Source: Oscillospiraceae bacterium (lineage in GTDB: Bacteria > Bacillota > Clostridia > Oscillospirales > Ruminococcaceae). Taken from it: a stretch of DNA of 64,000 nt. Location of the stretch: the NCBI GenBank assembly GCA_017483465.1, contig JAFUWN010000009.1, positions 1-64,000 of the forward strand. Direction: 5' to 3'. The notes beneath the pieces are model-generated. The model did no database searches, was not told the DNA's origin, and worked only from the letters and a program-made list of their open reading frames with translations. The stretch's first letter is position 1. Each line of letters begins with the position of its first letter. This document shows positions 11,726-27,471 of the stretch, piece by piece. The position numbers and the translations under genes are program-made.

Positions 11726-12427
11726 ATGATTTATGTCATGTCGGATGTTCATGGTGAATACCAGAAATATCTTAATATGCTGGAACTGATTCAGTTTTCT
11801 GACAAGGATTCTCTTTTTATTCTCGGTGATGTCGTGGACAGAGGGTCTGAACCTGTTTCCGTTCTGAAAGATATGATGCTCCGGCCGAATGTCTTTCCGA
11901 TCATGGGCAATCATGATTTTCTGGCTTATTATTTATTAAGCAAACTTGGCAGCAGCATTACAGGCGAGACTATCGAAAATACACTTGAAGTTGACGAAGT
12001 ACAGGACATTCTGGAATGGATTGATGACGGCGGTGCTTCCACAGTCGCACAGTTCCAGAAACTCACCCCTGAAGAACGTCAGGATATTCTGGATTATATT
12101 GCCGAATTTCCGTTCTATGAAACGATTGATGTCGGAGAAAATACATTCATTCTGGTTCATGCAGGACTCGGCAATTTCCGGCCGGATAAGAAACTGAGCG
12201 AATATTCTGCTGCTGATCTGATTACTACCCGGGAAGACCCTGACCGGAGATTCTTCGACAACGAACATATTTATATTATTACCGGTCATACACCCACCCC
12301 GCTGATCAGCGGAAAACCGGAAATTTATCACAGTGCCAATAATATTTATATCGACTGCGGTGCCTGTTTCGAGTCCGGCCGGCTTGCCTGTCTCTGTCTT
12401 GATACTATGCAGGAATTTTATATTTAA
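11726..12427 (+). CDS. Calcineurin-like metallophosphatase (Ser/Thr phosphatase or Ap4A hydrolase type)
   Basis: 233 residues with every block of the PPP-type metallophosphoesterases: DVHGEY (metal), GDVVDRG, GNHDF, HAGLG and GHTPTP. It is cytosolic. The family contains protein serine/threonine phosphatases (PrpE-like) and diadenosine tetraphosphatases; the sequence alone does not choose. The site AAAGGAGA precedes ATG. It heads a three-gene operon with a membrane protein (25 bases downstream) and an SGNH hydrolase. Confidence 0.9.
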   Translation: MIYVMSDVHGEYQKYLNMLELIQFSDKDSLFILGDVVDRGSEPVSVLKDMMLRPNVFPIMGNHDFLAYYLLSKLGSSITGETIENTLEVDEVQDILEWIDDGGASTVAQFQKLTPEERQDILDYIAEFPFYETIDVGENTFILVHAGLGNFRPDKKLSEYSAADLITTREDPDRRFFDNEHIYIITGHTPTPLISGKPEIYHSANNIYIDCGACFESGRLACLCLDTMQEFYI

Positions 12428-13714: not shown

Positions 13715-14836
13715 ATGATTTTACTGGATGAATTAAAAGTCGAAATGAACGGCTATCGAAAAGAACTCGACGAACTCGGCGAAGTGCTCAATATCAAAAA
13801 AGCCAGGGAAGAACTCAAAGATTTACAGGAACAGGCTACTGCTGCCGATTTCTGGGATGATCTCGAAAATTCCCAGAAAGTTCTTCAGAAAACCAAACAG
13901 CTCGAAAACAAAATCACAGACTATGAAAAAATGCAGTCCCGTCTTGATGATATTCTGACTATGATTGAACTCTGCATGGAAGAAGAAGACGAGGATATGC
14001 AGAATGAAATTGTCACGGAAATTGCCGATTTCAAACAGGCTCTGGAAAATAAAAATCTCGAAACGCTCCTGTCCGGCGAATATGACAGCAAAAATGCAAT
14101 TCTGACATTCCATGCCGGTGCAGGCGGTACCGAAGCTCAGGACTGGGCTGAAATGCTCTATCGTATGTATAACCGCTGGGCTGAACGCCATAATTTCAAA
14201 GTTCAGCTTCTGGATTACCTCGACGGCGAAGAAGCCGGCCTCAAGAGTGCCTCTATCATGGTAGAGGGTGAAAATGCTTACGGCTATCTCAAATCCGAAG
14301 CAGGTGTTCACAGATTAGTCAGAGTTTCCCCTTTCGATGCCTCCGGCAGAAGACATACTTCCTTTGCGGCTCTCGAAGTCATGCCGGAAATGGATGATAA
14401 TATTCAGGTCGAAATCCGTGACGAAGATATTGAAATGGAAGTTTACCGCTCCAGCGGTGCAGGCGGTCAGAAAGTCAATAAAACCAGTTCTGCTGTTCGT
14501 CTGATTCATAAGCCGACCGGTATCGTGACTTCCTGTCAGACTCAGCGAAGCCAGTATCAGAATAAAGACTATGCCATGAAAATGCTCGTTGCAAAATTAG
14601 TCGAAATCAAAGAGCGTGAGCATTTAGAAAAAATTTCTGATATCAAGGGCATTCAGAAAGAAATCGGCTGGGGTGCTCAGATTCGTTCTTATGTCTTCAT
14701 GCCGTATACTCTTGTCAAAGATCACAGAACCAATTTTGAAAACGGCAATATCAATGCTGTCATGGACGGCGATTTAGACGGCTTTATTCATGCCTATCTG
14801 AAATCGCTTTCTCACGGCACTCTTGAACAGAATTAA
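13715..14836 (+). CDS. prfB: Peptide chain release factor 2
   Basis: 373 residues in one open frame. It recognises UAA and UGA stop codons and triggers peptide release on the ribosome. The stop-recognition tripeptide SPF is at 205-207 and the GGQ hydrolysis motif at 250-252. No in-frame TGA or CTTTGA slip site is present near codon 25, so the programmed +1 frameshift that autoregulates RF2 in many bacteria is absent; the sequence reads straight through ELGEVLNIKKA. The site AAGGAG is well spaced before ATG, and a bidirectional terminator follows. Confidence 0.97.
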   Translation: MILLDELKVEMNGYRKELDELGEVLNIKKAREELKDLQEQATAADFWDDLENSQKVLQKTKQLENKITDYEKMQSRLDDILTMIELCMEEEDEDMQNEIVTEIADFKQALENKNLETLLSGEYDSKNAILTFHAGAGGTEAQDWAEMLYRMYNRWAERHNFKVQLLDYLDGEEAGLKSASIMVEGENAYGYLKSEAGVHRLVRVSPFDASGRRHTSFAALEVMPEMDDNIQVEIRDEDIEMEVYRSSGAGGQKVNKTSSAVRLIHKPTGIVTSCQTQRSQYQNKDYAMKMLVAKLVEIKEREHLEKISDIKGIQKEIGWGAQIRSYVFMPYTLVKDHRTNFENGNINAVMDGDLDGFIHAYLKSLSHGTLEQN

Positions 14837-14841
14837 TTAAA

Positions 14842-14881
14842 AAGCGGCTGAACGCACTTGTTCAGCCGCTTCTGTTTTTTT
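14842..14881. terminator. Bidirectional terminator between prfB and the GH74 gene
   Basis: 12-bp perfect stem AAGCGGCTGAAC/GTTCAGCCGCTT with a 6-base loop; T runs on both strands. The tail touches the stop codon of the convergent GH74 gene. Confidence 0.93.
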
Positions 14882-17507
14882 ACTTGATCGGGAATTCACT
14901 TGCTTTGATAATTCCGACAATGGATTTCAGAATATTCAGAGAATCTGTTGCATCCGGTGTGCCGCTCTGATCGACATCGGCATTTTTCTTGCCGCCTGCT
15001 GTCAGGGGTTCCTTGCCCATAATCGCTTTATTCAGCGTGATGACATCCAGAATATTGACAATGCCGTTTTCATCCGCATCGCCCCAGAGAATCTCATCAG
15101 ATTCAGAAGTTGTTTCTGTAGGCTTGGTTGTCGGTTCGCTTCCGTCGGAGAGTGCTCCATAGACAATACCGCATCCGACTGTGGACATGTAGACTTTACC
15201 AAATTCATTCATATCGCCAACCAGATAATTTCCGTTACCTGTACCGCCATAGAGATGCTTTGTATTAATGCAGAGCCATGTCTTGCCGCCGTCAGTTGAA
15301 CGATAAATTCCCTCTGCACCGTCATCCGTCAGCTTACCGTACATATACAGGGCATTGACATCGCCTTCCTTTTCAGGAGCACCATAGCCCATTGTTTTAC
15401 AATATGATACATTATCCAGCTTTTCGCTTGTGACTGTACCATCATCGGCAACTGTGACATGATACATACCATACCAGCCGCCGGCAAGCATAAGATCGCC
15501 CTTTGTCCCCAGATAAGCAATTCTTCCCGCACTGTCGCACTGGTCATACATACAGATGTCTGTGCTCTTGAATGTCTTTCCGCCGTCCTTGCTGACACAT
15601 AACTTATACTGTGCATCACTGGCATCCGGTTCTGTCTTGGAATAGAACCAGCTGGAATTATAATATGTTACATAAGCATAAACTGTATTCGGATCTTCCG
15701 GCTCGATAAATACCATTGTCGGCTTGGAACCATATGCAGACGGAATTCCCTCGCATGATGTCCATGTTTCACCCCAGTCATCACTATAAGAAACCGAGCT
15801 GCTGTCTTTGCTGGTATTGAAAACCCTGTAAGTCGATTTATCAATCTGAGCAATCGCAAGCTTACCGCCCTTTACAGCCGGACTGAATGCATTCCATGTC
15901 TTGCCTCTGTCAGTTGTATAATAACCCGAGCCGTTATCGCCCTCGGCAATTCTTGCCCAGACATCTGTATTTTGAGTGCATACGGCAATTGCTGATGTAC
16001 TGCCCATATTCGGCTGATACTGCAAGCCGATTGTTTCCGGATTTTCATGTACAAAACCGTCATAGTCACCGATTGCTGATAAGTCCAGTCCATCCGCTGT
16101 ACTGGTAAAATCAAGAGAAACGACTTCTTCGATTCCATCCGGATGGAATGTGAAGACAGGTCTCTTTTCAGGGTCTGTACTCCAGATATTCTCCGCAATA
16201 AATACACCGTTACCGGAAGTGATAAACATTCTGTCAGAATTTCTCGGGTCAGTCACTACCGTACCAGACCAGTGAATTGCCTTATCACGAATCCATGCAT
16301 AGCCGCCATCCTGTAAATATTCAGAAATCGGCTCCTGTCCCCATCCGGCAGATTTTCCCGGAGTAAAATTCTCCCATGTCTTACCGCCGTCGAACGAACG
16401 GAAATACTGATCGCCCCATGTAGCACCGTGATCATCTGTCCATGCTTCCCAGAGCTGATCTTCCCATTTGCCGCATGTACCGGCAATCATATGATCCGGA
16501 TTGCTCGGGTCAGCCCAGACAGAGCCAAAACCTTTATCACTGTCCAGAATCTGTGTGACTGTGCCTGTAGACGGTTCATAACGATAGCCGCCGCCGGATG
16601 CTCCGTTGAAAGCAAGTCCTGCAATATAGGTAATCAGCAGATTGCCATTGACATCAAGGTTAATTCTGGACGGATAGACATCCGTAGGCAGATCTTTACT
16701 CAGAACACTGAACTTATCATCTTTTGTGCTGGCAACATGAACATTCGCTGTACCTGTCGCAGAGGTGCCGACATATACTTTTCCGTCAGAAATGGCAATC
16801 GCTGCTACACCGTTCTGATGATTATATTCATCACTTGTAACAGATCTTGCAAGGGTATCTGTCCAGGTCGGCCATTTGGTTGTTTCTGCGAATAAGCCTA
16901 AATCATCATAGCCAATCACAGGCTCCCATGTTTCACCGCCGTCTGTTGATTTAATTAAAGCAGATTTTGAATTCTGATCTGATGTAACATCACCGCCGGC
17001 ATAGATGACTTTCGGATTATCCGGATCGACTGCAATTGCTTCACCGCACTGACGGCCGTCACCGTTACCCATAACTTTGATCAGATTTGTGACATCAATT
17101 TCTTGAAAGCTCTTGCCGCCGTCAGTTGTCTTGAAGATCACTGTTTTTTCTGCCGAGAAATAAGCACATCCGCAGAGAAAATATACTGTATTGTCATCTG
17201 TCGGGTCAACTGCCATGGCATCGACACTCAGCAGACCTCTGTCAGCATCGTTGATAAAATCAAGAAGCTGTTCCCAGCTTTCTGTATCGTAGTTATAACG
17301 ATACGCTCCGCCTACGTCAGTACGGGCATACATGACATCTTTACCGGTCACGATACCCGATACAAAGCCGCCGCCGCCGATTTTCATTGTTCCCCATGTA
17401 TAGGAATCTTCCAGCGAATCCACGGCCGATGCCGGCAGAAATGCCGCACAGCTGCACAGTACTGCTACACTTGCCACAGCAGCTGCCATTCTCTTCCATA
17501 ATTTCAT
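14880..17507 (-). CDS. Secreted GH74 xyloglucanase with C-terminal dockerin
   Basis: 875 residues. Signal peptide about 1-32, ending near LPASAVDS. The body is the GH74 double seven-bladed propeller: the start TWGTMKIGGGGFVSGIV, an Asp in ARTDVGGAYRY matching a family catalytic acid, and many Asp-box turns (STDGGETW, SFDGGKTW, STDGGKTW). Thr/Glu linker, then a dockerin at 809-875 with loops DADENGIVNILD and DVDQSGTPDATD. It should hydrolyse the xyloglucan backbone outside the cell while docked on a scaffold. The second ATG (17507) is chosen over ATG 17519 because the latter abuts the ribosome site GAGAGG. Confidence 0.94.
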   Translation of the reverse strand: MKLWKRMAAAVASVAVLCSCAAFLPASAVDSLEDSYTWGTMKIGGGGFVSGIVTGKDVMYARTDVGGAYRYNYDTESWEQLLDFINDADRGLLSVDAMAVDPTDDNTVYFLCGCAYFSAEKTVIFKTTDGGKSFQEIDVTNLIKVMGNGDGRQCGEAIAVDPDNPKVIYAGGDVTSDQNSKSALIKSTDGGETWEPVIGYDDLGLFAETTKWPTWTDTLARSVTSDEYNHQNGVAAIAISDGKVYVGTSATGTANVHVASTKDDKFSVLSKDLPTDVYPSRINLDVNGNLLITYIAGLAFNGASGGGYRYEPSTGTVTQILDSDKGFGSVWADPSNPDHMIAGTCGKWEDQLWEAWTDDHGATWGDQYFRSFDGGKTWENFTPGKSAGWGQEPISEYLQDGGYAWIRDKAIHWSGTVVTDPRNSDRMFITSGNGVFIAENIWSTDPEKRPVFTFHPDGIEEVVSLDFTSTADGLDLSAIGDYDGFVHENPETIGLQYQPNMGSTSAIAVCTQNTDVWARIAEGDNGSGYYTTDRGKTWNAFSPAVKGGKLAIAQIDKSTYRVFNTSKDSSSVSYSDDWGETWTSCEGIPSAYGSKPTMVFIEPEDPNTVYAYVTYYNSSWFYSKTEPDASDAQYKLCVSKDGGKTFKSTDICMYDQCDSAGRIAYLGTKGDLMLAGGWYGMYHVTVADDGTVTSEKLDNVSYCKTMGYGAPEKEGDVNALYMYGKLTDDGAEGIYRSTDGGKTWLCINTKHLYGGTGNGNYLVGDMNEFGKVYMSTVGCGIVYGALSDGSEPTTKPTETTSESDEILWGDADENGIVNILDVITLNKAIMGKEPLTAGGKKNADVDQSGTPDATDSLNILKSIVGIIKASEFPIK

Positions 17508-17566
17508 AGTAATACACATTCCTCTCTATATAAATCATTTTTGCTGAATCATCAGCATATATTTCT

Positions 17567-17595
17567 ATTTTACTATATTCCGAATAAAAATGCAA
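17567..17595 (-). promoter_or_regulatory. Sigma-A promoter of the GH74 gene
   Basis: TTGCAT (17590-17595) and TAAAAT (17567-17572) on the minus strand, 17 bases apart. Confidence 0.77.
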
Positions 17596-17645
17596 TAGCT
17601 AAAGCAAAAAATTCTTCTAATTTATTTTTATTTTCTCATGACAAA

Positions 17646-18323
17646 TTAAAACCGACAGCCGATTATTTTTCCATTGCTTCCTTTGATGATAAGAAATGCA
17701 GGGTTATCATGTATCGTTACGAATGTATAGCCATCTTCTGTTACACCTGACGGCATACAAGCACTGATATACCATATATCATATTCTTCATAATATGCTG
17801 TATCATAAACAGGCGTTGTCCTTTCTGCAATTGCAATTTTCACACCGTTCCTGTCAAGATACTCAGCCTCTGCCCGATCGATATAACCCTGACCAAGAAC
17901 CTCGATGAAAACTTCTCTTGCCTTTGAGATTAAATCCTGTTCGCTGTCAATTTTGCCTAAAGTATTATTTTTTATTCGAGAAACACTGTTCATAAAAAAA
18001 TCAATTTCGTTATCATAAGTAATATAATCCGTTCCGGTATAAATTGTATATGGCTCTTTATCATATCCATTCCATCTTTCATTGCATACAAATGCAATTG
18101 CTTCAAAAATATCTTCATCAGCTTTATTTTCAGTTTCTGTCGTTTCAGAATCAGCATCTGTGGCAACAGTTGAAACAGCAGTTGTCGTTTCAGAACTTAT
18201 CGCAGAAACAGTATCGCTTGTTTCTGTAATTTGATGTTCGGAAACGTCTGCAACATCTGTTTTATTACTGCATGAACAGAATATGATTAAGATCAAAATA
18301 CAAATAAAACTATATCTTTTCAT
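17646..18323 (-). CDS. Putative lipoprotein, unknown function
   Basis: 225 residues. The N terminus MKRYSFICILILIIFCSCSN is a lipoprotein-type signal with an atypical lipobox (FCS-C). A Ser/Thr/Glu-rich linker follows (about 25-68), then a soluble domain of about 155 residues ending DNPAFLIIKGSNGKIIGCRF. The closing WYISACMP...VTIHDNPA...GKIIG recalls NTF2-fold immunity or lipoprotein domains, but this is only a resemblance. AAAGGAG precedes ATG. More AT-rich than its neighbours, with no obvious promoter of its own in the 84 bases upstream; it may be read through from the dockerin genes. Confidence 0.75.
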   Translation of the reverse strand: MKRYSFICILILIIFCSCSNKTDVADVSEHQITETSDTVSAISSETTTAVSTVATDADSETTETENKADEDIFEAIAFVCNERWNGYDKEPYTIYTGTDYITYDNEIDFFMNSVSRIKNNTLGKIDSEQDLISKAREVFIEVLGQGYIDRAEAEYLDRNGVKIAIAERTTPVYDTAYYEEYDIWYISACMPSGVTEDGYTFVTIHDNPAFLIIKGSNGKIIGCRF

Positions 18324-18363
18324 TTATATTCTCCTTTCACAGAGTATCTGGTTAAACAGGAAG

Positions 18364-18385
18364 CCCCCGCCTTTTCAGACGGGGG
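18364..18385 (-). terminator. GC-rich hairpin after the dockerin gene at 18408
   Basis: 8-bp stem CCCCCGTC/GGCGGGGG (one G-T pair) with loop TGAAAA on the minus strand; the T tract is poor, so termination may be partial and feed the lipoprotein gene. Confidence 0.6.
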
Positions 18386-18407
18386 AGAACATCACTTAAT
18401 TTTCTAT

Positions 18408-20168
18408 TTATGCCAAGCCGACAATCTTTTTCATCATTGTCAGAGAATCTTCGGAATCCGGTACGCCGTTCTGATTGAAATCAATATAAGCAATTTTATC
18501 TTTATCCATAGATTCTTTACCGAGTACGGCTTTATTGACTACTATGACATCTACAATATCAAGTTTTCCGCTTCCGTCCGCATCGCCTGTTACCATTTCA
18601 GATACTACCGGATTGATTGTGATCTCTTTTTCTTTCGGCAGAACTAACATAATTTCTGTGCCATCCAGTACAAATTCATAAGTTTCTCCTACTTTCAGAT
18701 CATCCATATAGATGGGTGCTTCATGTCCTGTATACTCCGCTGACTGATATGATGCTGTATAGATCACACCGTCTGCATCTTCGGCTTTCAGAATCCGGTT
18801 CTCATTCGATTTGACTGTCAGTTCTTTGACTGTTCCATAGTACTCCGAGGCTGTGCCGAGTTTCTCAATCTCTGTATTTTCCGGAGTCTTGCCGTATTCT
18901 TCCCATTCAAACAGATCATTCGGAATTTTTACTACATCACCGTATTCCAGCGTGATTCCCTCAAGATATTTACTGCTCAAAGAACGCTGTTCACTGAAAT
19001 AATATCTGTTCCCCTGATCTCCGATATAGATTGCTATGACAGAATCCTCCTGTTTCCGTTCCGTATCTGCCGAAGTATTCACAATATCTGTAATCATCAG
19101 GATTCTGTCTTCTGTCATTGCACACTTGACAGTATCGCCGATTTCCAGATTCTGAATCGGAATATCAAATTTCCAGTCAACATAGTTATATAAATCATAG
19201 TTATATCTGTAATCTGTACCGTCTGCATCTGTTAAGATCATTTCCGGATATTCACCCGGATGATTTACTGATACTGTCATTTCCTTAATCGGATAGAAAT
19301 CTTCTACTGTTCCGAGTTTTTTCAGATGACTCGGCTCAAACTGTGCCGGATAAGTTTCATATACCATATAGTCCCCAAAATAAACATCGCCATACTGAGG
19401 AAGTTCGTCTGAATCTACTGCACCGAATATAAAATTAAAATAGGATAATGCCCATCCGCTCCATTTTCCATCAGTATCGACTGCATACACCCCGTCCCCC
19501 TTACTCATGAAAATAATATTTGTACCATATTCAGAATCAGAAGTTTTCAAATCCGGTACTGTGCCATCACCTTTTTTAACAGAAAGCACCTGCATCGGAT
19601 AACTAAATTCAGAATCTTCTGCATTGACTGCACAGGTTACAATATCGCCGACAGATACATCTTTCAGAGAATAAACAGAATCATAGAGATAATCATAATC
19701 TTGATAAATCCAGTAGTTTCCGGTTTCCGTATCTGTCAGCCGAGTCCAGTACACACCACCTGTATCTTCGGAATGCTTTGTAACAACATAATCTTTTGTA
19801 TTTGTGAAAAATTCGAGTTCATTGCCCTGATTCGTGATTGTACTGTCTTCTTCAAATACAAATTCTCCGAGCGTTGTGCCTCCGCCTCTGGAAGGCGACA
19901 TAATATAGAGTACATCACCGACAACAGGAAGTGTGCTTCCTTCTGCAAGATATGTTGTCATTTCTTCTGCTGAAATCGCATAATTAAAGAAACGATTCTC
20001 TGTGACAATATAGCTTTCCGGCTGATTCTCTTCATTATAGTTAATCAGAGAAACCCGGCATGTCCACGGAATCACTTCCGCCTGTACTGACATCGGAAAT
20101 GCGGATGTCAATCCGGTCAGACACATCAGAGCTGTCAGACCTGCGAATAACTTTCTTGTTTTTTTCAT
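18408..20168 (-). CDS. Secreted modular dockerin protein, three unknown beta-rich modules
   Basis: 586 residues. Signal peptide 1-30; three diverged copies of a module of about 150 residues at roughly 31-195, 215-365 and 375-515; dockerin at 528-586 with loops DADGSGKLDIVD and DFNQNGVPDSED. Each module shows a pattern GDVxxI, then LGTxxxFxxxKxxTV, then DxDGxxYxY, then a GDxxxxxx strand. I recognise no catalytic motif or carbohydrate-active family. Likely a structural or binding component of a cellulosome-like complex. ATG 20168 is chosen by AAAGGAGG 8 bases upstream. Upstream lies a sequence element shared with its paralogue at 21552-23354. Confidence 0.85.
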   Translation of the reverse strand: MKKTRKLFAGLTALMCLTGLTSAFPMSVQAEVIPWTCRVSLINYNEENQPESYIVTENRFFNYAISAEEMTTYLAEGSTLPVVGDVLYIMSPSRGGGTTLGEFVFEEDSTITNQGNELEFFTNTKDYVVTKHSEDTGGVYWTRLTDTETGNYWIYQDYDYLYDSVYSLKDVSVGDIVTCAVNAEDSEFSYPMQVLSVKKGDGTVPDLKTSDSEYGTNIIFMSKGDGVYAVDTDGKWSGWALSYFNFIFGAVDSDELPQYGDVYFGDYMVYETYPAQFEPSHLKKLGTVEDFYPIKEMTVSVNHPGEYPEMILTDADGTDYRYNYDLYNYVDWKFDIPIQNLEIGDTVKCAMTEDRILMITDIVNTSADTERKQEDSVIAIYIGDQGNRYYFSEQRSLSSKYLEGITLEYGDVVKIPNDLFEWEEYGKTPENTEIEKLGTASEYYGTVKELTVKSNENRILKAEDADGVIYTASYQSAEYTGHEAPIYMDDLKVGETYEFVLDGTEIMLVLPKEKEITINPVVSEMVTGDADGSGKLDIVDVIVVNKAVLGKESMDKDKIAYIDFNQNGVPDSEDSLTMMKKIVGLA

Positions 20169-20218
20169 AATAATTCCTCCTTTATGTTGAAGCATTTGGT
20201 TTGCGTTTTGGATTTGCT

Positions 20219-20256
20219 TTCTATCTATATAACAATCAAGTCAGAAAAATATTGGA
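20219..20256 (-). promoter_or_regulatory. Shared promoter-like element A (dockerin module family)
   Basis: In gene sense: TTTTTCTG, 7 bases, TGTTATATA, then GATAGA. TGTTATATA (20226-20234) looks like an extended -10, but no TTGACA-like -35 exists at 17 bases. Near-identical to the element at 23402-23439. Confidence 0.55.
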
Positions 20257-20300
20257 AAAAAATTTTTTATTTTTTTGAAATTTCACAGAAAATTCATAAA

Positions 20301-21536
20301 TTATTCCAGACCGACTATTTTTCTCATCATTGTGAGTGAATCTGCTGAATCCGGTACTCCGTTCTGATTGAAATCTATATGAGAGATTCTCTTTGAATTG
20401 AAACTCTCTTTTCCCATTATTACTCTGTTAATCATAATCACATCGAGAATATCAAGTTTCTGATTGCCGTCTGCATCGCCATCCAGTACAAAAGACAGCA
20501 TCATGATCGGCTTTCCTCTGGGATTCAGAGCACAGAGAATTTTATCTCCGTTCTGCACTTCTTTTATATCAGGAATATCCGGCATGAAAAATTTAATTTT
20601 ATCTCCCCGATATTCTAAATAATAAGGCAGATATAATTGATATTCCTGTTCTCCGTTACTTACTTTCAGATAAGAATAGGTTGCTATTCCTGTGACAGTC
20701 AGTTCCGCTGTCGGAGCACTCAGTACAGAACCGATGATCTGCATATCATGCGGACGATATTCATAAGCCGCACTGGGCTGAAAACTAAATTCATTGCCGT
20801 TTCCTGTCGAGATTGCTGAAATATTCCGGACTCGGAGAATATCACCGAAATGCAGTTCCTCATCTTTCAGAAAAGTTAATTCTGATCTCTTGAAATACCA
20901 CGGCTGACCGCCTGCTGATATTGCATAATATTCCGGATTTTCGGCATCATCCACGCCGACAACATAGGCATAATAAATATGATCCAGTTTTTCAACAGGT
21001 CTTACGGGTGTATCTTCACAGAATGCAAATGTATATTGACATTCAAGTTCTGCCTGATTCATGCCGTAACGATAATCAAATTCCTGATACTCACTGTAAG
21101 TATATAGATTATGATTCAGATCTTCAAGAAGATATTCCGTTCTCGGATGAGTATCCTCAATAGTTTTAATCTCTTTTATGATAACAGTTTTATTTTGAAA
21201 TACTTCCGAAACTTTTTCAGAAATACGCTGTGTACCATCTGCAAATTTAATCTGAATCGGCCATCCGTTCCGGATATAATAATTGCCTTCGATTGTGAAC
21301 ATAGTTTCTGAGGCATACCAATAATCATAATCAGAAGTCAAAGAGAAATCCGCCGGAATATGATGCAGTTCACCATTGATATGATAATAATATTCCGCAA
21401 GTTTTTCATTTGGATTGATGATAATAAAAAACGAATCATAATTAGTTTCTTCGGCTCTGACCGGAAAATTTATCAGCATACCGCCCAGACAGCAGAGAGC
21501 TGTCAGGGCGGTAATCATTATTTTCACTAATTTCAT
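20301..21536 (-). CDS. Secreted modular dockerin protein, two unknown beta-rich modules
   Basis: 411 residues. Signal peptide about 1-28; two copies of the same module as in the flanking paralogues (roughly 35-180 and 187-345); dockerin at 353-411 with loops DADGNQKLDILD and DFNQNGVPDSAD. The module hallmark CQYTFAFCEDTPVRPVE closes the first copy. ACAGGAGA precedes ATG. Its start is only 15 bases from the stop of the three-module paralogue upstream, so the two are co-transcribed. No enzyme motif is visible; a binding or scaffold-decorating role is inferred from architecture only. Confidence 0.85.
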   Translation of the reverse strand: MKLVKIMITALTALCCLGGMLINFPVRAEETNYDSFFIIINPNEKLAEYYYHINGELHHIPADFSLTSDYDYWYASETMFTIEGNYYIRNGWPIQIKFADGTQRISEKVSEVFQNKTVIIKEIKTIEDTHPRTEYLLEDLNHNLYTYSEYQEFDYRYGMNQAELECQYTFAFCEDTPVRPVEKLDHIYYAYVVGVDDAENPEYYAISAGGQPWYFKRSELTFLKDEELHFGDILRVRNISAISTGNGNEFSFQPSAAYEYRPHDMQIIGSVLSAPTAELTVTGIATYSYLKVSNGEQEYQLYLPYYLEYRGDKIKFFMPDIPDIKEVQNGDKILCALNPRGKPIMMLSFVLDGDADGNQKLDILDVIMINRVIMGKESFNSKRISHIDFNQNGVPDSADSLTMMRKIVGLE

Positions 21537-21551
21537 AAAATTCTCCTGTGA

Positions 21552-23354
21552 TTATGCTAATCCGACAATTGTTTTGAGAGTATTCAGAGCATCTGTCGAA
21601 TCCGGAATCTGATTGTTATTATAATCCATATATTTAATCTGTTCCGGCTGAATCGCTTCTTTTCCGAGAACGGCTTTATTAATCACAATCACATCTAAAA
21701 CATTTGTGATTCCGTTTCCGTCCGCATCGCCTGTGAAATCCGGATTGCTTTCCTGATTACCCGAAGTATCTGCTATGATTTCTTCTGATTCCGGTAACGG
21801 GATGATTGCACTGTCACGATAAAAAGCGAATTCTCTTTCTGTACCTTTTTGGCAACGCATCGGAATATCTGAACTGAAACTGTCTTCTATAGAATAATAA
21901 TATTCTGTACCTGCTTCATCTGTCAGATGATAAGTAAATATCCGAAAACTCGGAATCACAGGAGCACCGTCATAAACTTCGCTCTGAGCAGTCAGTGTTT
22001 TATGTTCCATCAGATCAGAACAGTTCCCGATTTTTGTGAGTGTTGTTTCTTCATCGAGAGTGAGTGTATAGACAGCTCTGTAATTTTCCATCGCTGTTGT
22101 TTCAAATCCGCCGTCTGCAAGGAAAATATCGCCATAAGAGACATGATCGCCTAAATCTCCGGTGAAATACAGTTTTCTGTGAGCATAATTTGTTACGGAA
22201 AGCTCTTTCGGATAATAATATTCCAGCATATAATGATCTTCTGCGGCTACATTCGTGACGATAAAAAATTCATCTGCATTGAAATTTTCCGGCTGTACGG
22301 TTTCTCTGACCGGAAGCAGAGCCGTATCATCATAGACAGCAAATGTATATACATCACCGATCTGAGCGTTTTCAAGACTGATTTCATAATCAAATTTATC
22401 ATATTCCTGACGATACGGATATTGATTTCCCTCGCTGTCTGTGAATACATATTCTCCGATACTTCTGTGAACGGTCGAGCCGTCTGCTGGATATACATGC
22501 AGTTCACCGCCGGACGTGAGAGTCAGTTTTTTGAGTTCAAACTGATCGGAAGCTGTTCCGATGCGATTCACATAACCGCCATCGAAATAAACTACTTCTG
22601 CGGGTTCGGAATCTGTAAAAAAATAATCATCGCCGATTGTGAAAACATCACCGTACTGAATATCCTGAATTTCAGAAGCAAACTCTTCTTCCGGAAGATA
22701 GATCATTTTTGATTTTATCAAGCCTGTAGTTGTGAGGCCGGTTCTGACAGTATCGTAATATTGGCCGATATATCTGTCTTTTTCTTTTCCGGTGATAATC
22801 ATGAAAGGCTCGAGATCGGGAGCAGGTTCCGTGCCTGTGACTCTGACAGGGGTATCATGATAGAATGCGAACTGATAAATATCTCCAATCCCGGCATATT
22901 CCAGACTCAATGAAGATTTAAAAAATTCAGAATCAGCCTGAGCATAAGAATAAGTATTTCCCTCGCTGTCAGTCAGTTCAAATACACCCGAATCAATATT
23001 TGTAATCTGAACATATTTCACTGCAAGCTGACTGCCCTCCGGATTGCGGGTGAAAGAAACATCTTCCGGGAGTGTCAGCGTTCTGATGTTCGTACCGTCA
23101 AGCTGATAATCGCCGTCGATTGTCAGGACATCTCCGCCGGTGATTCTTTCTTCCGTCCAGAATTTCACAGGTTCTGTTGAAACCTGACCGTCTGCATCCA
23201 TACAATGAAGCAAGCCCCAGCATCCGGCAGACTGCATGGTTTCGACAATAAAGCAGTCATCCGGAGCTTCGGCACTGACCGGAAGCAGATTCATCAGCAT
23301 TCCTGTCATTACAAAAGCGGTCAGCCCTGCCGATATTCTACTTGTTTTTTTCAT
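21552..23354 (-). CDS. Secreted modular dockerin protein, three unknown beta-rich modules
   Basis: 600 residues. Signal peptide 1-30 (ends VSAEA); modules at about 32-173, 183-350 and 361-521, each ending in a strand like GDIYQFAFYHDTPVRV or GDVYTFAVYDDTALLPVR; dockerin at 542-600 with loops DADGNGITNVLD and DYNNNQIPDSTD. It leads the operon with the 411-residue paralogue. AAAGGAGG is 7 bases before ATG, and shared element B lies upstream. The three paralogues differ in module number (3, 2, 3), as expected from duplication by recombination between modules. Function unknown; not a recognised carbohydrate-binding or cohesin family. Confidence 0.85.
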   Translation of the reverse strand: MKKTSRISAGLTAFVMTGMLMNLLPVSAEAPDDCFIVETMQSAGCWGLLHCMDADGQVSTEPVKFWTEERITGGDVLTIDGDYQLDGTNIRTLTLPEDVSFTRNPEGSQLAVKYVQITNIDSGVFELTDSEGNTYSYAQADSEFFKSSLSLEYAGIGDIYQFAFYHDTPVRVTGTEPAPDLEPFMIITGKEKDRYIGQYYDTVRTGLTTTGLIKSKMIYLPEEEFASEIQDIQYGDVFTIGDDYFFTDSEPAEVVYFDGGYVNRIGTASDQFELKKLTLTSGGELHVYPADGSTVHRSIGEYVFTDSEGNQYPYRQEYDKFDYEISLENAQIGDVYTFAVYDDTALLPVRETVQPENFNADEFFIVTNVAAEDHYMLEYYYPKELSVTNYAHRKLYFTGDLGDHVSYGDIFLADGGFETTAMENYRAVYTLTLDEETTLTKIGNCSDLMEHKTLTAQSEVYDGAPVIPSFRIFTYHLTDEAGTEYYYSIEDSFSSDIPMRCQKGTEREFAFYRDSAIIPLPESEEIIADTSGNQESNPDFTGDADGNGITNVLDVIVINKAVLGKEAIQPEQIKYMDYNNNQIPDSTDALNTLKTIVGLA

Positions 23355-23401
23355 AACAATTCCTCCTTTGATGAAACTAATCTATTTATGTTCGGATTGT
23401 C

Positions 23402-23439
23402 TTCTATTTATATAACAATTAAAACAGAAAAATATTGGA
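23402..23439 (-). promoter_or_regulatory. Shared promoter-like element B (dockerin module family)
   Basis: In gene sense: CCAATATTTTTCTG, 7 bases, TGTTATATAAATAGAA. It matches element A over about 38 positions with few changes. The 360-base gap between 23355 and 23716 holds this element, an AT-rich stretch with a short ATCTGT/ACAGAT hairpin near 23518-23542, and the divergent vanY promoter. Confidence 0.55.
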
Positions 23440-23615
23440 AATTTTTTTGAAAATGATTATAAAAATTATAGAATATTTATCCTCAAAATACAATTGGCAG
23501 AATATCCAAATTCAAACCATCTGTCTTGTAAAAAACAGATAAATTATAAACATGTCCGGTTTTTCGACATTTTTCACAAATTCATAAAAAAATTAAAAAA
23601 AACTGAAAAAAACAG

Positions 23616-23644
23616 GTGACAAACCGTTTTTTTTGTGCTATAAT
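23616..23644 (+). promoter_or_regulatory. Sigma-A promoter of the VanY-family gene
   Basis: GTGACA (23616-23621), 17 bases, TATAAT (23639-23644). Confidence 0.75.
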
Positions 23645-23716
23645 AAATATCAGTATGCATGATACAAATCCATCAGAAGTGATACACCCGATTTTTAATA
23701 AGAAAGGATTTTGCCA

Positions 23717-24937
23717 ATGGCACAGGAAACTGCTAAAAAACGCCGCAAAGACAGAGCAAGAGCCTCTTTTCTCCTGCTGATGCTCAGCGTTGTGTTAGTG
23801 TTCGGATTCGGTTTAATTGTCGGAAAACAAAATATGAATCAGCTGCAGCAGGTCGAAGCAGTTCCACAGCAGGAATCAGAACCGGAAGAGGCTCCGCCTG
23901 TTACGGAAAATACACCGGCGGAAGCTGTTCCGGTCGAGAATGTTCCCGAAACAACTCCGGAATTTCATCAGGCAACCGGCTTCTGGAGTGTTGAACCGCA
24001 TGTTTATCTGCGTGTGAATCATACCAAAGCTCTGAACCTTGCCTGCAATCCCGATGTCAACCTCTCCGAAGCAATCTACGGTGTCAGTGATGAAGGAATT
24101 GCACTGGTCGATGAACATGGCCTGATTACAGGCGTTTCCAGAGGGGAATGCACTGTCTCTGTATTCTGCGGCACGGAAACACTCCGGATTCCCGTTACCG
24201 TCCGGGAACTGGTCGTGGAAAACGGCTGTACCTATGTCGACGGCATCTTAGTCGCCAATAAAAGCATCAGTCTGCCGGAAGACTATGACCCCGGTATGCT
24301 CCCCGAAACTGCCGAAGCGTTTGCGGAATTACAGGAAGCCGCCAAAGAAGAAGATCTGAATATCTATCAGGGCTCCGGCTACAGAGATTACCAGTATCAG
24401 ATCACCTGCTATAACAGTCTTGTCAATGCCTACGGCGAAGAATATGCCGATAAAATTTCTGCAAAGCCCGGACATTCCGAACATCAGACGGGCTATACCG
24501 TAGACTGCAATTCCATCAACGAAACGTTCATCAATACTCCGGAGGGGCAGTGGCTGGATCAGCACGCTCATGAATTCGGCTTTATTATCCGCTATCCGGA
24601 AGGAAAAGAAGATATTACCGGTTACAGCTATGAATGCTGGCATATCCGCTATGTAGGTGTAAAAGCCGCTACGGAAATGTTTGAACAGGGTCTGACTCTG
24701 GAAGAATATCTTGATATTGTCTCTATTGAAAACGACATCCCCCCGCTGGAAACAGAATCCGATTCCGAGGAGATGTCCGGTCAGACAGATGAAATTTTTA
24801 TCCAGAACAGTGAAATGCTTCCGGAAGAATCTTTCCAGGAAAATCAGATTCCTGAAGAAGATACAGATGTACCGTTTGTTCCCGAGGCGGATGAAGATGA
24901 AATTGAAATCATTGATGCTCCGCTGGAAGCTCCGTAA
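23717..24937 (+). CDS. VanY-family D-alanyl-D-alanine carboxypeptidase, membrane-anchored
   Basis: 406 residues. An N-terminal basic stretch and one membrane helix (about 18-38) anchor it; a Glu/Pro linker follows; residues about 90-170 form an Ig-like BIG2-type domain (GITGVSRGECTVSV-like turn); the peptidase domain follows with SGYRDYQYQ, the zinc motif SEHQTGYTVDC and ECWHIRYVG. It trims the terminal D-Ala of peptidoglycan stem peptides outside the membrane. The long acidic C-terminal tail (about 340-406) is unusual and of low complexity. ATG 23717 is preferred to TTG 23711 because AAAGGA (23703-23708) is then 8 bases away. Confidence 0.92.
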   Translation: MAQETAKKRRKDRARASFLLLMLSVVLVFGFGLIVGKQNMNQLQQVEAVPQQESEPEEAPPVTENTPAEAVPVENVPETTPEFHQATGFWSVEPHVYLRVNHTKALNLACNPDVNLSEAIYGVSDEGIALVDEHGLITGVSRGECTVSVFCGTETLRIPVTVRELVVENGCTYVDGILVANKSISLPEDYDPGMLPETAEAFAELQEAAKEEDLNIYQGSGYRDYQYQITCYNSLVNAYGEEYADKISAKPGHSEHQTGYTVDCNSINETFINTPEGQWLDQHAHEFGFIIRYPEGKEDITGYSYECWHIRYVGVKAATEMFEQGLTLEEYLDIVSIENDIPPLETESDSEEMSGQTDEIFIQNSEMLPEESFQENQIPEEDTDVPFVPEADEDEIEIIDAPLEAP

Positions 24938-24947
24938 GCAATATTCA

Positions 24948-24981
24948 GAAAACTCCGCCGTGCCGGAGTTTTCTTGTTTTT
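24948..24981 (+). terminator. Intrinsic terminator after the VanY gene
   Basis: 10-bp stem GAAAACTCCG/CGGAGTTTTC, loop CCGTGC, then TTGTTTTT. Confidence 0.9.
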
Positions 24982-25009
24982 CCGGTATATTCTGTAGATA
25001 TGCCGTTTC

Positions 25010-25476
25010 TTAGGAACAGGCATTACAGGCATATCCCCGAACAGAAGAAAGCTGACAAGATTTCCTTCTGTCACGGTTCGCCATTCTACCGAAGGGGTTC
25101 GCCATCCTTCTGCAACATAGCTTGTAAAAATCACATAATCCTTTCCGGTTCCGGAATCCGTCAGCAGTACAGAACCCTATGCTGTATTACTGACAAAGAA
25201 ATCGGCTGTTCTCCCCTGTGTCAGCAGAGAACCTGTCACGATACTTTTCACAGCTCCGTGACAGATGATGCTGTTTGTACCGGCAAGTTCGGTCATTTCC
25301 AGTCTGTTTTCTGCCATGATATGCAGAATATCGCCTATTTTCAAGCCTTTTTCCGGCAATGTCCTGTATATCTGCTTTGGCAGATAGTACGAACCGCCTT
25401 TCTGATCTGCGAGAATATACTCTCCTGTATCGGCGGCGACTGTCACAAAATCGTATTCATAAAATTTCTGATGCAT
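25010..25476 (-). pseudogene. Relic of the modular dockerin family, interrupted by an amber stop
   Basis: From ATG 25476 (with AAGGAG 9 bases upstream) 99 codons are open, then TAG at 25174-25176. The same frame continues with GSVLLTDSGTGKDYVIF and GNLVSFLLFGDMPVMPVP, which match the last strands of the modules in the three dockerin paralogues (compare GDVYTFAVYDDTALLPV). It therefore covers about one module. It has no signal peptide and no dockerin, and its frame runs on into the vanY terminator without a natural end. A shared-type element lies upstream. A single sequencing error at the TAG is possible but would still leave a one-module fragment. Confidence 0.72.
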
Positions 25477-25535
25477 GTATTTCTGCTCCTTTTCTGAATT
25501 TTAGTTTTTAAAATAGACAGAATTTTTCTCATTTC

Positions 25536-25583
25536 TCTTATTTATATAACATCTGTGAAACCAAAAAATCAGAAAAAATTTTA
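25536..25583 (-). promoter_or_regulatory. Shared promoter-like element C (relic gene)
   Basis: In gene sense it contains TTTTTTCTG and TGTTATATAAATAAGA, as in elements A and B, but with 18 rather than 7 bases between the two parts. The spacing change may mean the promoter is decayed. Confidence 0.45.
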
Positions 25584-25680
25584 AAAAATTATATATTTTG
25601 TATGAACGCACAAAAACAAAACATTCTTTTTATGCACAATGTTGAATTTCTGAAACCCTATAGCATTTTATCTCTGAATA

Positions 25681-25689
25681 TGTTATAAT
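25681..25689 (+). promoter_or_regulatory. Extended -10 promoter before the small membrane gene
   Basis: TGTTATAAT, a perfect extended -10, 37 bases before ATG 25726. No convincing -35 is seen. Confidence 0.6.
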
Positions 25690-25725
25690 AAAATTAATTA
25701 TAATCCCGGAAACGGAGGTGATTCT

Positions 25726-25866
25726 ATGAAAAATTTCGTAAAAGCAGTCGGCTTTATTACCCTCTCTTTCAGCGTATTCTGGTTAAGCTACCGTCTGACA
25801 GACAAATATCTGAATAAATTCAGAAGAAATTATATTACCATCGAAAACGAACATGTCAGTGTCTGA
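25726..25866 (+). CDS. Small single-helix membrane protein (46 residues)
   Basis: MKNFVKAVGFITLSFSVFWL begins a 46-residue protein with one hydrophobic helix (about 7-22) and a basic, then acidic tail ending ENEHVSV. A perfect GGAGGTG lies 5 bases before ATG, the extended -10 promoter is just upstream, and only 30 bases separate it from the FAD oxidoreductase, so translation is likely and it leads that operon. No family recognised; it could be an accessory subunit or anchor for the following membrane proteins. Confidence 0.7.
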   Translation: MKNFVKAVGFITLSFSVFWLSYRLTDKYLNKFRRNYITIENEHVSV

Positions 25867-25896
25867 CAGGTATGCTTTTTCAGAAAGGAGCAAGGA

Positions 25897-27471
25897 ATGA
25901 AGGAAGTCGCAATCATCGGTGCAGGGCCGGCAGGATTGACTGCCGGCTATGAACTTTTAAAACAGACATCCGGACAGTATCATGTTACAATCTATGAAGA
26001 ATCCCCCTATATCGGCGGCATTTCCAGAACCGTGAACCATCACGGAAACAGAATGGATCTGGGCGGTCACCGCTTTTTCTCCAAAAATCAGGAAGTCATG
26101 CACTGGTGGCAGACGATGATGCCGTTTCAGGGCGAACCCTCTTTTGATGATATTCAGCTTGGCAGAGAAAAATCTCTTGTTCCCGGCGGTGCCGACCCCG
26201 AAGCAGATGACAGAGTTATGCTCATCCGGAACAGAGTTTCCAGAATTTATTATCATCATAAATTTTTTGATTATCCTGTCTCACTCAAATGGGATACAAT
26301 CAGAAATATGGGCTTCGGCACGACTGTACAGGCAGGATTCAGTTATATGAATGCCTCTGCTTTCCGGAGAAAAGAAAATTCCCTGGAAGATTTTTATATC
26401 AACCGTTTCGGGAAAAAATTATATTCCATGTTCTTTGAAGGCTATACCAAAAAATTATGGGGCAGACATCCGTCACAGATTTCTGCCGACTGGGGGGCAC
26501 AGCGTGTCAAAGGGCTTTCCGTCTCTGCTGTGATGCTGGATATGTTTCATAAAATCACCGGAATTCAGGATAACAGCCGGAAAGAAACTTCTCTGATCGA
26601 AGAGTTCTATTATCCGAAATACGGCCCCGGTCAGCTCTGGGAACTGACTGCCGAAGAATTCCGGAAACTCGGCGGTGAAATTATCCTCAATGCCAGAGTC
26701 TGCGGGATTCATACCAATCAGAATCAAATAGAATCCATCACGTATCAGAAAAATCAGCAGGAGACCGTCACAATCCCCGTAGATATTCTGATTTCCTCCA
26801 TGCCTCTGAAAGATCTTGTAACCGGCATGAACGACGTTCCTGCACAGGAGGCCGCTATTGCCAAAGGCCTGCCTTATCGTGATTTTGTGACGATCGGCCT
26901 GCTTGTGAACCGTCTGGCGCTCAGAAACGAAACCAATATCCCGACACTCGGAAATATTGTTCCTGACTGCTGGATTTATGTCCAGGATACCGGAGTCCGG
27001 CTCGGCAGAATCCAGATTTTCAATAACTGGTCGCCCTATATGGTACAGGATCCCGCCCGTCAGGTCTGGCTTGGTCTGGAATATTTCTGCACCGAAGGCA
27101 GCCGTTTCTGGCAGCTGACTGACGAACAGACTCTTGCATTTGCTGTGGAAGAACTCCGCAGCATGGGCATTCTCGCTGAAAATACCGAAATTCTTGATTA
27201 TCACAGAGAACAGGTTAAAAAAGCATACCCGGCCTATTTTGATACTTATGCATCGATTGATCAGCTGATTGCCTATCTGAACCGGTTTGAAAATCTCTAC
27301 TGTGTCGGCCGGAACGGTCAGCACAGATATAACAATATGGATCATTCCATGCTGACTTCTTTCGAGGCTGTAAAAAATATCCTTTCCGGCAGAAAAAACA
27401 AGTTCAATATCTGGGATGTCAATACAGAACAGATTTATCATGAAACCGATATACAAGAGGATTCCCTATGA
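25897..27471 (+). CDS. FAD/NAD(P)-dependent oxidoreductase, glycan-cluster type
   Basis: 524 residues. The N-terminal dinucleotide-binding motif is [15 protein letters not shown], followed by an acidic second strand and [20 protein letters not shown], typical of the amine-oxidase/UDP-galactopyranose-mutase-like group found beside polysaccharide and lipid-linked sugar genes. It has no signal peptide. The C terminus closes the FAD site with [18 protein letters not shown]. The stop overlaps the next start in ATGA. The substrate is unknown: relatives act on sugar nucleotides or polyprenyl compounds, and the membrane glycosyltransferase-like neighbour favours a surface glycan role. Confidence 0.85.

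Follow-up and report, generated by a model that had tools for sequence, protein, structure and literature searches.

Modules of ruminococcal dockerin proteins are often encoded next to dockerin-bearing trypsin-like proteases

In protease-inhibitor pairs, such as those of the staphostatins and Spi, the protease gene is usually followed directly by one for a secreted protein that has no catalytic role. Protease inhibitors docked onto cellulosomes are described in the consulted part of PMC12484212, namely the serpin PinA of Clostridium thermocellum and Dpi of Clostridium cellulolyticum, which carries a dockerin and reportedly guards cellulases against proteolytic attack (Xu 2014, cited in PMC12484212). 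For Ruminococcus flavefaciens FD-1, the consulted sections of PMC2930009 give 118 dockerin proteins, 155 unknown domains, 3 serpins and several peptidases, as well as a tandem of four 'UNK-Doc' genes; PMC4081043, in its consulted sections, also mentions proteases, serpins and unknown modules. Here we describe an unnamed module that builds three neighbouring secreted dockerin proteins in an Oscillospiraceae bacterium (assembly GCA_017483465.1, contig JAFUWN010000009.1, positions 1 to 64,000; this whole stretch of 64,000 nucleotides is called the window), and that is encoded beside trypsin-like proteases in related genomes.

In this genus, the gene of a dockerin-bearing trypsin-like protease and a downstream module-dockerin gene often form a tight same-strand pair. 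At four of the five loci where the pairing was noticed (L043, L044, L045 and L050), a trypsin-like protease gene adjoins that of a single-module protein, and the fifth, L040, holds a protease remnant. When the genus set of 38 genomes, the window's included, was searched with one such protease, matches at 1e-10 were obtained in 12 genomes and gave 20 genes after the merging of fragments. The dockerin is part of the same open reading frame (ORF) in 17 of these 20 genes; the L040 gene is the remnant, and at L080 and L151 the dockerin part is in a separate ORF. The module profile used to look for partners predates the protease search, but postdates the noticing of the pairing at the five loci. A same-strand module was found within 1.5 kb of 12 of the 20 protease genes (downstream in 11 cases), as compared to 0.09 expected from random placement by a rough estimate; without the five discovery loci, this was true of 7 proteases out of 15. 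Going gene by gene, a module gene lies directly downstream of 14 of the 20 proteases, with a gap of at most 20 bp or an overlap as called, and of 9 of the 15 when the discovery loci are left out. At L080 the module gene, 12 bp downstream, was masked in the automated count by a longer antisense ORF. The next same-strand ORF is within 23 bp or overlapping (starts as called) in 19 of the 20 cases. The proteases followed by a module gene are those of L040, L043, L044, L045 (a TAG-broken fragment), L050, L080, L149, L150, L153, L155 (two), L156 (two) and L157, and their partners reach 17.6 to 134.5 bits when scored with a profile whose training preceded the retrieval of the further loci. Since L043, L045 and L050 are related, as are L155 to L157, the pairs represent about eight distinct neighbourhoods, judged by gene sizes; in the module tree, too, they are spread over several branches. 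Each of the 14 proteases that were aligned has the His-Asp-Ser triad without variation and matches Trypsin_2, and the closest solved relative of the protease profile is a glutamyl endopeptidase (1p3c, 7e-14).

Directly downstream of three of the same proteases we observed dockerin proteins of other unnamed types (L148:1622-3414, L154:7419-8426 and L151:5100-6086), which raises the question of whether they are alternative partners. A radical-SAM/SPASM gene (by Pfam), which we take to resemble the widespread SCIFF maturase, lies beside the protease in L043, with a look-alike in L050; the idea of a peptide-maturation operon was dropped and the gene was taken as a chance neighbour.

The staphostatin and Spi pairs resemble this arrangement in that an inhibitor gene adjoins that of a secreted protease, and differ from it in their folds, in the protease class and in not being docked. 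PinA would be similar as a dockerin protein that controls a protease inside the cellulosome, if the module is indeed an inhibitor; however, PinA (PMC12484212, part consulted) is a serpin, while no serpin match was found in 77 module proteins, and the partner of the module is of the trypsin and not of the subtilisin type and is encoded in the same gene pair. Dpi, compared by its description in the same source, shares with the module proteins the presence of a dockerin; the modules match no inhibitor family (Pfam, 1e-3). By description alone, the module family may be among the unknown domains or 'UNK-Doc' genes of strain FD-1, and the words 'trypsin' and 'hypothetical' are absent from the main text of PMC2930009. 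No description of the protease-module pair was found in the open-access literature, a scope outside which most subscription papers lie.

At the window itself, the original prediction had placed three neighbouring secreted proteins composed of modules and a dockerin, in 3, 2 and 3 copies, with a decayed single module nearby. The three ORFs were found as described, all on the minus strand. In the list, each module is scored against a profile built without itself and without the rows alignable with it over at least 60 residues at 32% identity or more (leave-out profile).

21552..23354, minus strand: 600-residue secreted protein with signal peptide, modules C1 to C3 and dockerin (ORF and Pfam)
22815..23270, minus strand: module C1 (leave-out profile, 46.4 bits)
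22278..22814, minus strand: module C2 (leave-out profile, 81.9 bits)
21768..22277, minus strand: module C3 (leave-out profile, 63.6 bits)
21555..21737, minus strand: dockerin of the 600-residue protein (Dockerin_1, 2e-4, 21.9 bits, cut-off 22.9; 26.2 bits in a second, genome-wide scan, above the cut-off)
20301..21536, minus strand: 411-residue secreted protein with signal peptide, modules B1 and B2 and dockerin (ORF and Pfam)
20982..21452, minus strand: module B1 (leave-out profile, 31.1 bits)
20484..20981, minus strand: module B2 (leave-out profile, 47.6 bits)
20304..20483, minus strand: dockerin of the 411-residue protein (Dockerin_1, 26.1 bits)
18408..20195, minus strand: 595-residue secreted protein with signal peptide, modules A1 to A3 and dockerin (ORF and Pfam)
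19548..20078, minus strand: module A1 (leave-out profile, 57.0 bits)
19044..19547, minus strand: module A2 (leave-out profile, 62.1 bits)
18594..19043, minus strand: module A3 (leave-out profile, 50.4 bits)
18411..18593, minus strand: dockerin of the 595-residue protein (Dockerin_1, 23.0 bits)
25003..25476, minus strand: broken stand-alone single-module gene, without dockerin and with no signal peptide seen (module 70.7 bits, with one TAG)
23711..24937, plus strand: VanY-type D-Ala-D-Ala carboxypeptidase, a gene-order marker (PF02557, 2e-39; in the same place in relatives by size and strand)
14880..17519, minus strand: 879-residue BNR-repeat dockerin protein, presumably GH74-like, the second gene-order marker (BNR, Sortilin-Vps10 and Dockerin_1)

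The 600-residue gene is separated by 15 bases from the start of the 411-residue gene, and a further 105 bases lie before the 595-residue gene. All three proteins have a hydrophobic N-terminus, judged by eye, and a C-terminal dockerin that matches Dockerin_1 (PF00404); the scores listed lie around the cut-off, and in the genome-wide scan all three exceed it. The genome is 2.91 Mb long and contains 105 dockerin matches and 11 cohesin matches, of which 9 are above the cut-off, five of these 9 lying within one 1466-residue frame. With these 105 dockerin and nine cohesin matches the host is taken as a cellulosome maker, and it is plausible that the three module proteins are non-catalytic cellulosome proteins. 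The module array and the BNR-dockerin gene are separated by a gene for a 225-residue lipoprotein-like protein (17646-18323, minus strand), whose best Pfam match, at 0.0042, is below the cut-off.

The eight modules, 150 to 179 residues long as cut, are homologous to each other, as had been proposed. In fact, their leave-out scores of 31.1 to 81.9 bits compare with best scores of 4.8 to 12.3 bits among the shuffled sequences of each module (199 shuffles per module), with a small bias due to the underlying alignment having been built with all modules. Pairwise BLOSUM scores connect many of them (for example C2-C3 with z 18 and A2-A3 with z 15.6) and leave the pairs A3-B1 and B1-B2 at chance, while a first profile built from six modules gave A1 just 19.4 bits and missed B2. 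The wider profile was needed because these two approaches connect part of the set only. A search of the whole genome at E 1e-3 returned exactly the eight modules and the broken one, so that the copy numbers of 3, 2 and 3 stand; a weak match in a 2998-residue frame (E 0.02) was absent with a larger profile at 1e-3 and was treated as chance. The proposed landmarks are looser than originally written. In relaxed full form, GDxxxI occurs in five of the eight modules (shuffle mean 1.3, maximum 5), LGTxxxFxxxKxLT in two, DxDGxxYxY in four and GDxYxFA in two.

The module is also unrecognised, as the original prediction had it: profile searches gave no Pfam, NCBIfam or Protein Data Bank (PDB) sequence match, the best E in the PDB search being 0.54. 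When the window proteins were scanned against Pfam and NCBIfam, nothing worth naming was found except the dockerin. Among 38 modules scanned singly against Pfam, none fell below E 0.0088, the value of a Triabin match in one of them, which is at chance level over 38 scans. In the 77 module-bearing proteins analysed, Pfam at 1e-3 recognised Dockerin_1 in 59 and LRR_5 in two and nothing else, that is, no carbohydrate-active enzyme (CAZyme), carbohydrate-binding module (CBM) or peptidase domain. The CelK model of NCBIfam matches 14 of the 77, which we take to be their dockerin part; the HupY and Gli349 matches come from a single fused protein, in its leucine-rich part.

By appearance the module is beta-rich, and a hint as to its fold comes from DUF3006 (PF11213), a conserved protein of about 70 residues. 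A full family match is ruled out by score, since one of the 38 modules reaches a Pfam E of 0.015 and the best score is 16.0 bits as compared to a gathering threshold of 32.3. In hhalign comparisons, the N-terminal half of the module aligned with DUF3006 with a score of 24.2 (probability 50%), whereas 22 comparisons of halves with unrelated profiles gave at most 13.7. The C-terminal half did not match (12.0), and the N-terminal half of the stand-alone family, at 13.5, was no better than the controls. The two halves of the module also resemble each other (score 20.7, probability 28%; maximum of 12.4 in 100 shuffles, two of them unscored). From this likeness and the DUF3006 alignment, each module may consist of two small barrels, the N-terminal one possibly with a DUF3006-like fold; we regard this as a hint and not as a result. 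DUF3006 itself is encoded by one small gene in each of 34 of the 38 genus genomes (for example G000:C35:25351-25545), and nothing was found about it in the open-access literature.

A profile built from 51 modules detected the module in 32 of the 38 genus genomes. In a class sample of 391 genomes, including the window's, three of the other 390 gave matches, one clear (L076, 7e-17) and two weak (6.5e-5 and 4.6e-4). The L076 protein, outside the genus, is lipoprotein-like by eye, carries two modules and no dockerin, and is not an enzyme. On these profile matches the module appears to be an almost genus-specific extracellular domain. Module proteins contain from one to four modules (one listing of module ORFs left out those below 130 residues or 25 bits, and also L093, a duplicate region). 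In L082:5352-7598 and L083:7006-8778 the module forms one fused chain with leucine-rich repeats of the BspA type and with a dockerin. In L040:8627-10051 and L041:11891-13315 two copies of a different repeat of about 100 residues (best Pfam match DEP, 0.0018, below the cut-off) come after it, and then a dockerin; a propeptide-like region considered in the L040 protein (residues about 190-412) had no support from Pfam or PDB. At L045 (G012:C132, 1171-3608) there are three nearly alike tandem module-dockerin genes, all three interrupted by a TAG at an identical position in the module; these are either a duplicated pseudogene or an assembly artefact.

The set had been suggested to be expanding and decaying in place, and this was not borne out for most of it. 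In a tree of 126 modules, A1, A2 and A3 pair with modules 1, 2 and 3 of a 601-residue protein of L037 (support 0.97, 1.00 and 1.00), and B1 and B2 group with the same positions of a 411-residue protein of L038 and a 409-residue protein of L037 (0.98 and 1.00). This one-to-one pairing implies that the copy numbers of the 595- and 411-residue proteins predate the species split; judged by the tree, these arrays are inherited and their copies old. The 600-residue protein has no full one-to-one counterpart in the tree: C3 pairs with module 2 of the L039 protein (0.95), while C1 and C2 group together at a support of 0.26 only, so that a younger duplication may have occurred in this protein.

The decayed single module was confirmed as real, and it is not fallout of the array. 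One whole module lies at 25003-25428 and is interrupted in the assembly by an in-frame TAG at 25177-25179; the relic therefore extends beyond the ORF at 25177-25476. Scored apart, the two pieces gave 18.1 and 42.4 bits, the latter with orthologues kept in the profile and so not a clean leave-out value. Intact counterparts are present in 11 other genomes as single-module proteins of 167 to 228 residues as called, without dockerin or visible signal peptide, and five of the six orthologues aligned are 61-67% identical to the first. The gene is flanked by a VanY-size gene in 10 of the 11 and, on the opposite side, by a gene for 522 to 543 residues in 9, with the contig ending too early in the remaining two; flanks were identified by size, strand and order, the Pfam scan covering the VanY of the window. 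At four of these loci (L087 to L090) no module-dockerin gene is present in the stretch seen around it. The intact orthologues, four of them without a module-dockerin neighbour, indicate an old separate gene, so that the relic is best described from gene order and homology as the broken orthologue of a dockerin-less gene.

Considering what the module may do, the pairing over differing neighbourhoods and module branches, the lack of fusion to CAZymes, the many-headed forms and the varying loops (in paralogue arrays variation is mainly in the loops of the N-terminal half, by eye) are best fitted by a docked protease inhibitor or control partner. The pairing is observed and the inhibition is what we infer from it, with a confidence that comes close to even and stays on the lower side. 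The module protein would be docked onto the cellulosome and act on proteases: held on the same scaffold as the protease encoded with it, it would inhibit or control this enzyme, and so would either restrain the docked protease or protect the complex against proteases from outside. Proteins with several modules, among them the 3-2-3 set of the window, would be multi-headed inhibitors. As the genome of the window has no protease of this type, its set would be orphaned, and might guard against foreign or unrelated proteases or be left over. The minus-strand protease remnant at L040:7870-8346 sits within the counterpart of the window's cluster in a relative and suggests that the ancestor of the window may have had a protease there.

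Several findings weigh against an inhibitor. Six of the 20 proteases are not followed by a clear module gene: in L147 and L152 the next gene has a very weak match (9.1 and 11.9 bits), in L148, L151 and L154 it encodes a dockerin-only protein and in L146 it has neither module nor dockerin, the ORF being cut by the contig end (at most 2.1 bits in these four). Since the genomes are related, the cases of pairing are not independent, and the pairing cannot separate an inhibitor from an activator, chaperone or targeting partner. For many module genes there is no protease alongside, and 26 of the 38 genus genomes, the window's included, have no protease match at 1e-10, though 32 of the 38 have modules. 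In the genome of the window no match extends past position 151 of the 401-position protease profile, even at E 10. In tblastn searches with the protease, the region 14000-26000 gave E values of 0.34 or worse, and the whole window gave matches at 0.005, 0.062 and 0.44, the first of which (12056-12385) lies in a metallophosphoesterase and was discarded. No known protease-inhibitor family, serpins included, was found in the 77 module proteins (Pfam, 1e-3). The ratio of nonsynonymous to synonymous substitution rates (dN/dS) of the modules is 0.29-0.46 in the six pairs listed, each pair from within one genome and with dS below 1.2, which indicates purifying selection and gives no sign of positive selection. 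Moreover, the stand-alone copy, lacking a signal peptide, does not fit an inhibitor acting outside the cell.

The same tight gene pairs would be expected if the module were a non-inhibitory partner of the protease, for instance one that helps its secretion or folding, captures substrates, or directs the protease onto plant-wall or competitor proteins. Protease and partner mostly carry a dockerin each, which would be expected of components that sit next to each other, and two module proteins contain BspA-type leucine-rich repeats, which often bind proteins. This explanation leaves the multi-module proteins of protease-free genomes unaccounted for, and we consider it unlikely.

Substrate binding, surface attachment or display, the roles suggested originally, have no specific support, and the context in relatives points to proteases. 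Nevertheless, the module might be a new carbohydrate- or cell-envelope-binding module, with the protease pairs as a side use. The modules are rich in tyrosine (8.4% as compared to 4.6% in window ORFs above 200 residues), many module genes lie away from proteases, and dockerin enzymes of families GH26 and GH9 are near some of them (L155 and L079). Non-catalytic starch-binding proteins of dockerin complexes do exist, as Sas20 of Ruminococcus bromii (PMC9112005, part consulted). On the other hand, none of the 77 proteins combines the module with a CAZyme or CBM domain, the PDB sequences, where solved CBMs should be present, gave no match, and the L076 protein outside the genus is lipoprotein-like and not an enzyme. 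Such a role seems quite improbable to us. Finally, the copies in the window might have no function any more and be the remains of a protease-partner system that has disappeared. This agrees with the missing protease, the TAG in the stand-alone gene and the L040 remnant, but is very improbable given three long intact ORFs with dockerins and five modules with one-to-one counterparts in relatives.

A bolder form of the inhibitor reading is possible, though we hold it tentatively: the modules would be a new inhibitor family with a new double-barrel fold, part of this genus's cellulosomes, encoded together with docked glutamyl endopeptidases and occurring in chains of one to four heads, while the stand-alone relative without a signal peptide could guard the cell interior. 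If this were true, a unit for regulated proteolysis would belong to the cellulosome itself.

Much of what ruminococcal cellulosome proteins consist of is unknown domains (one strain has 155, according to the consulted part of PMC2930009). For one such family, our analysis supplies a profile, a range, two corrections and the question of a protease partner. If the inhibitor reading is true, rumen cellulosomes would contain a protease as an integral part, together with the means to control it, and this would bear on the maturation, turnover and protection of the complex.

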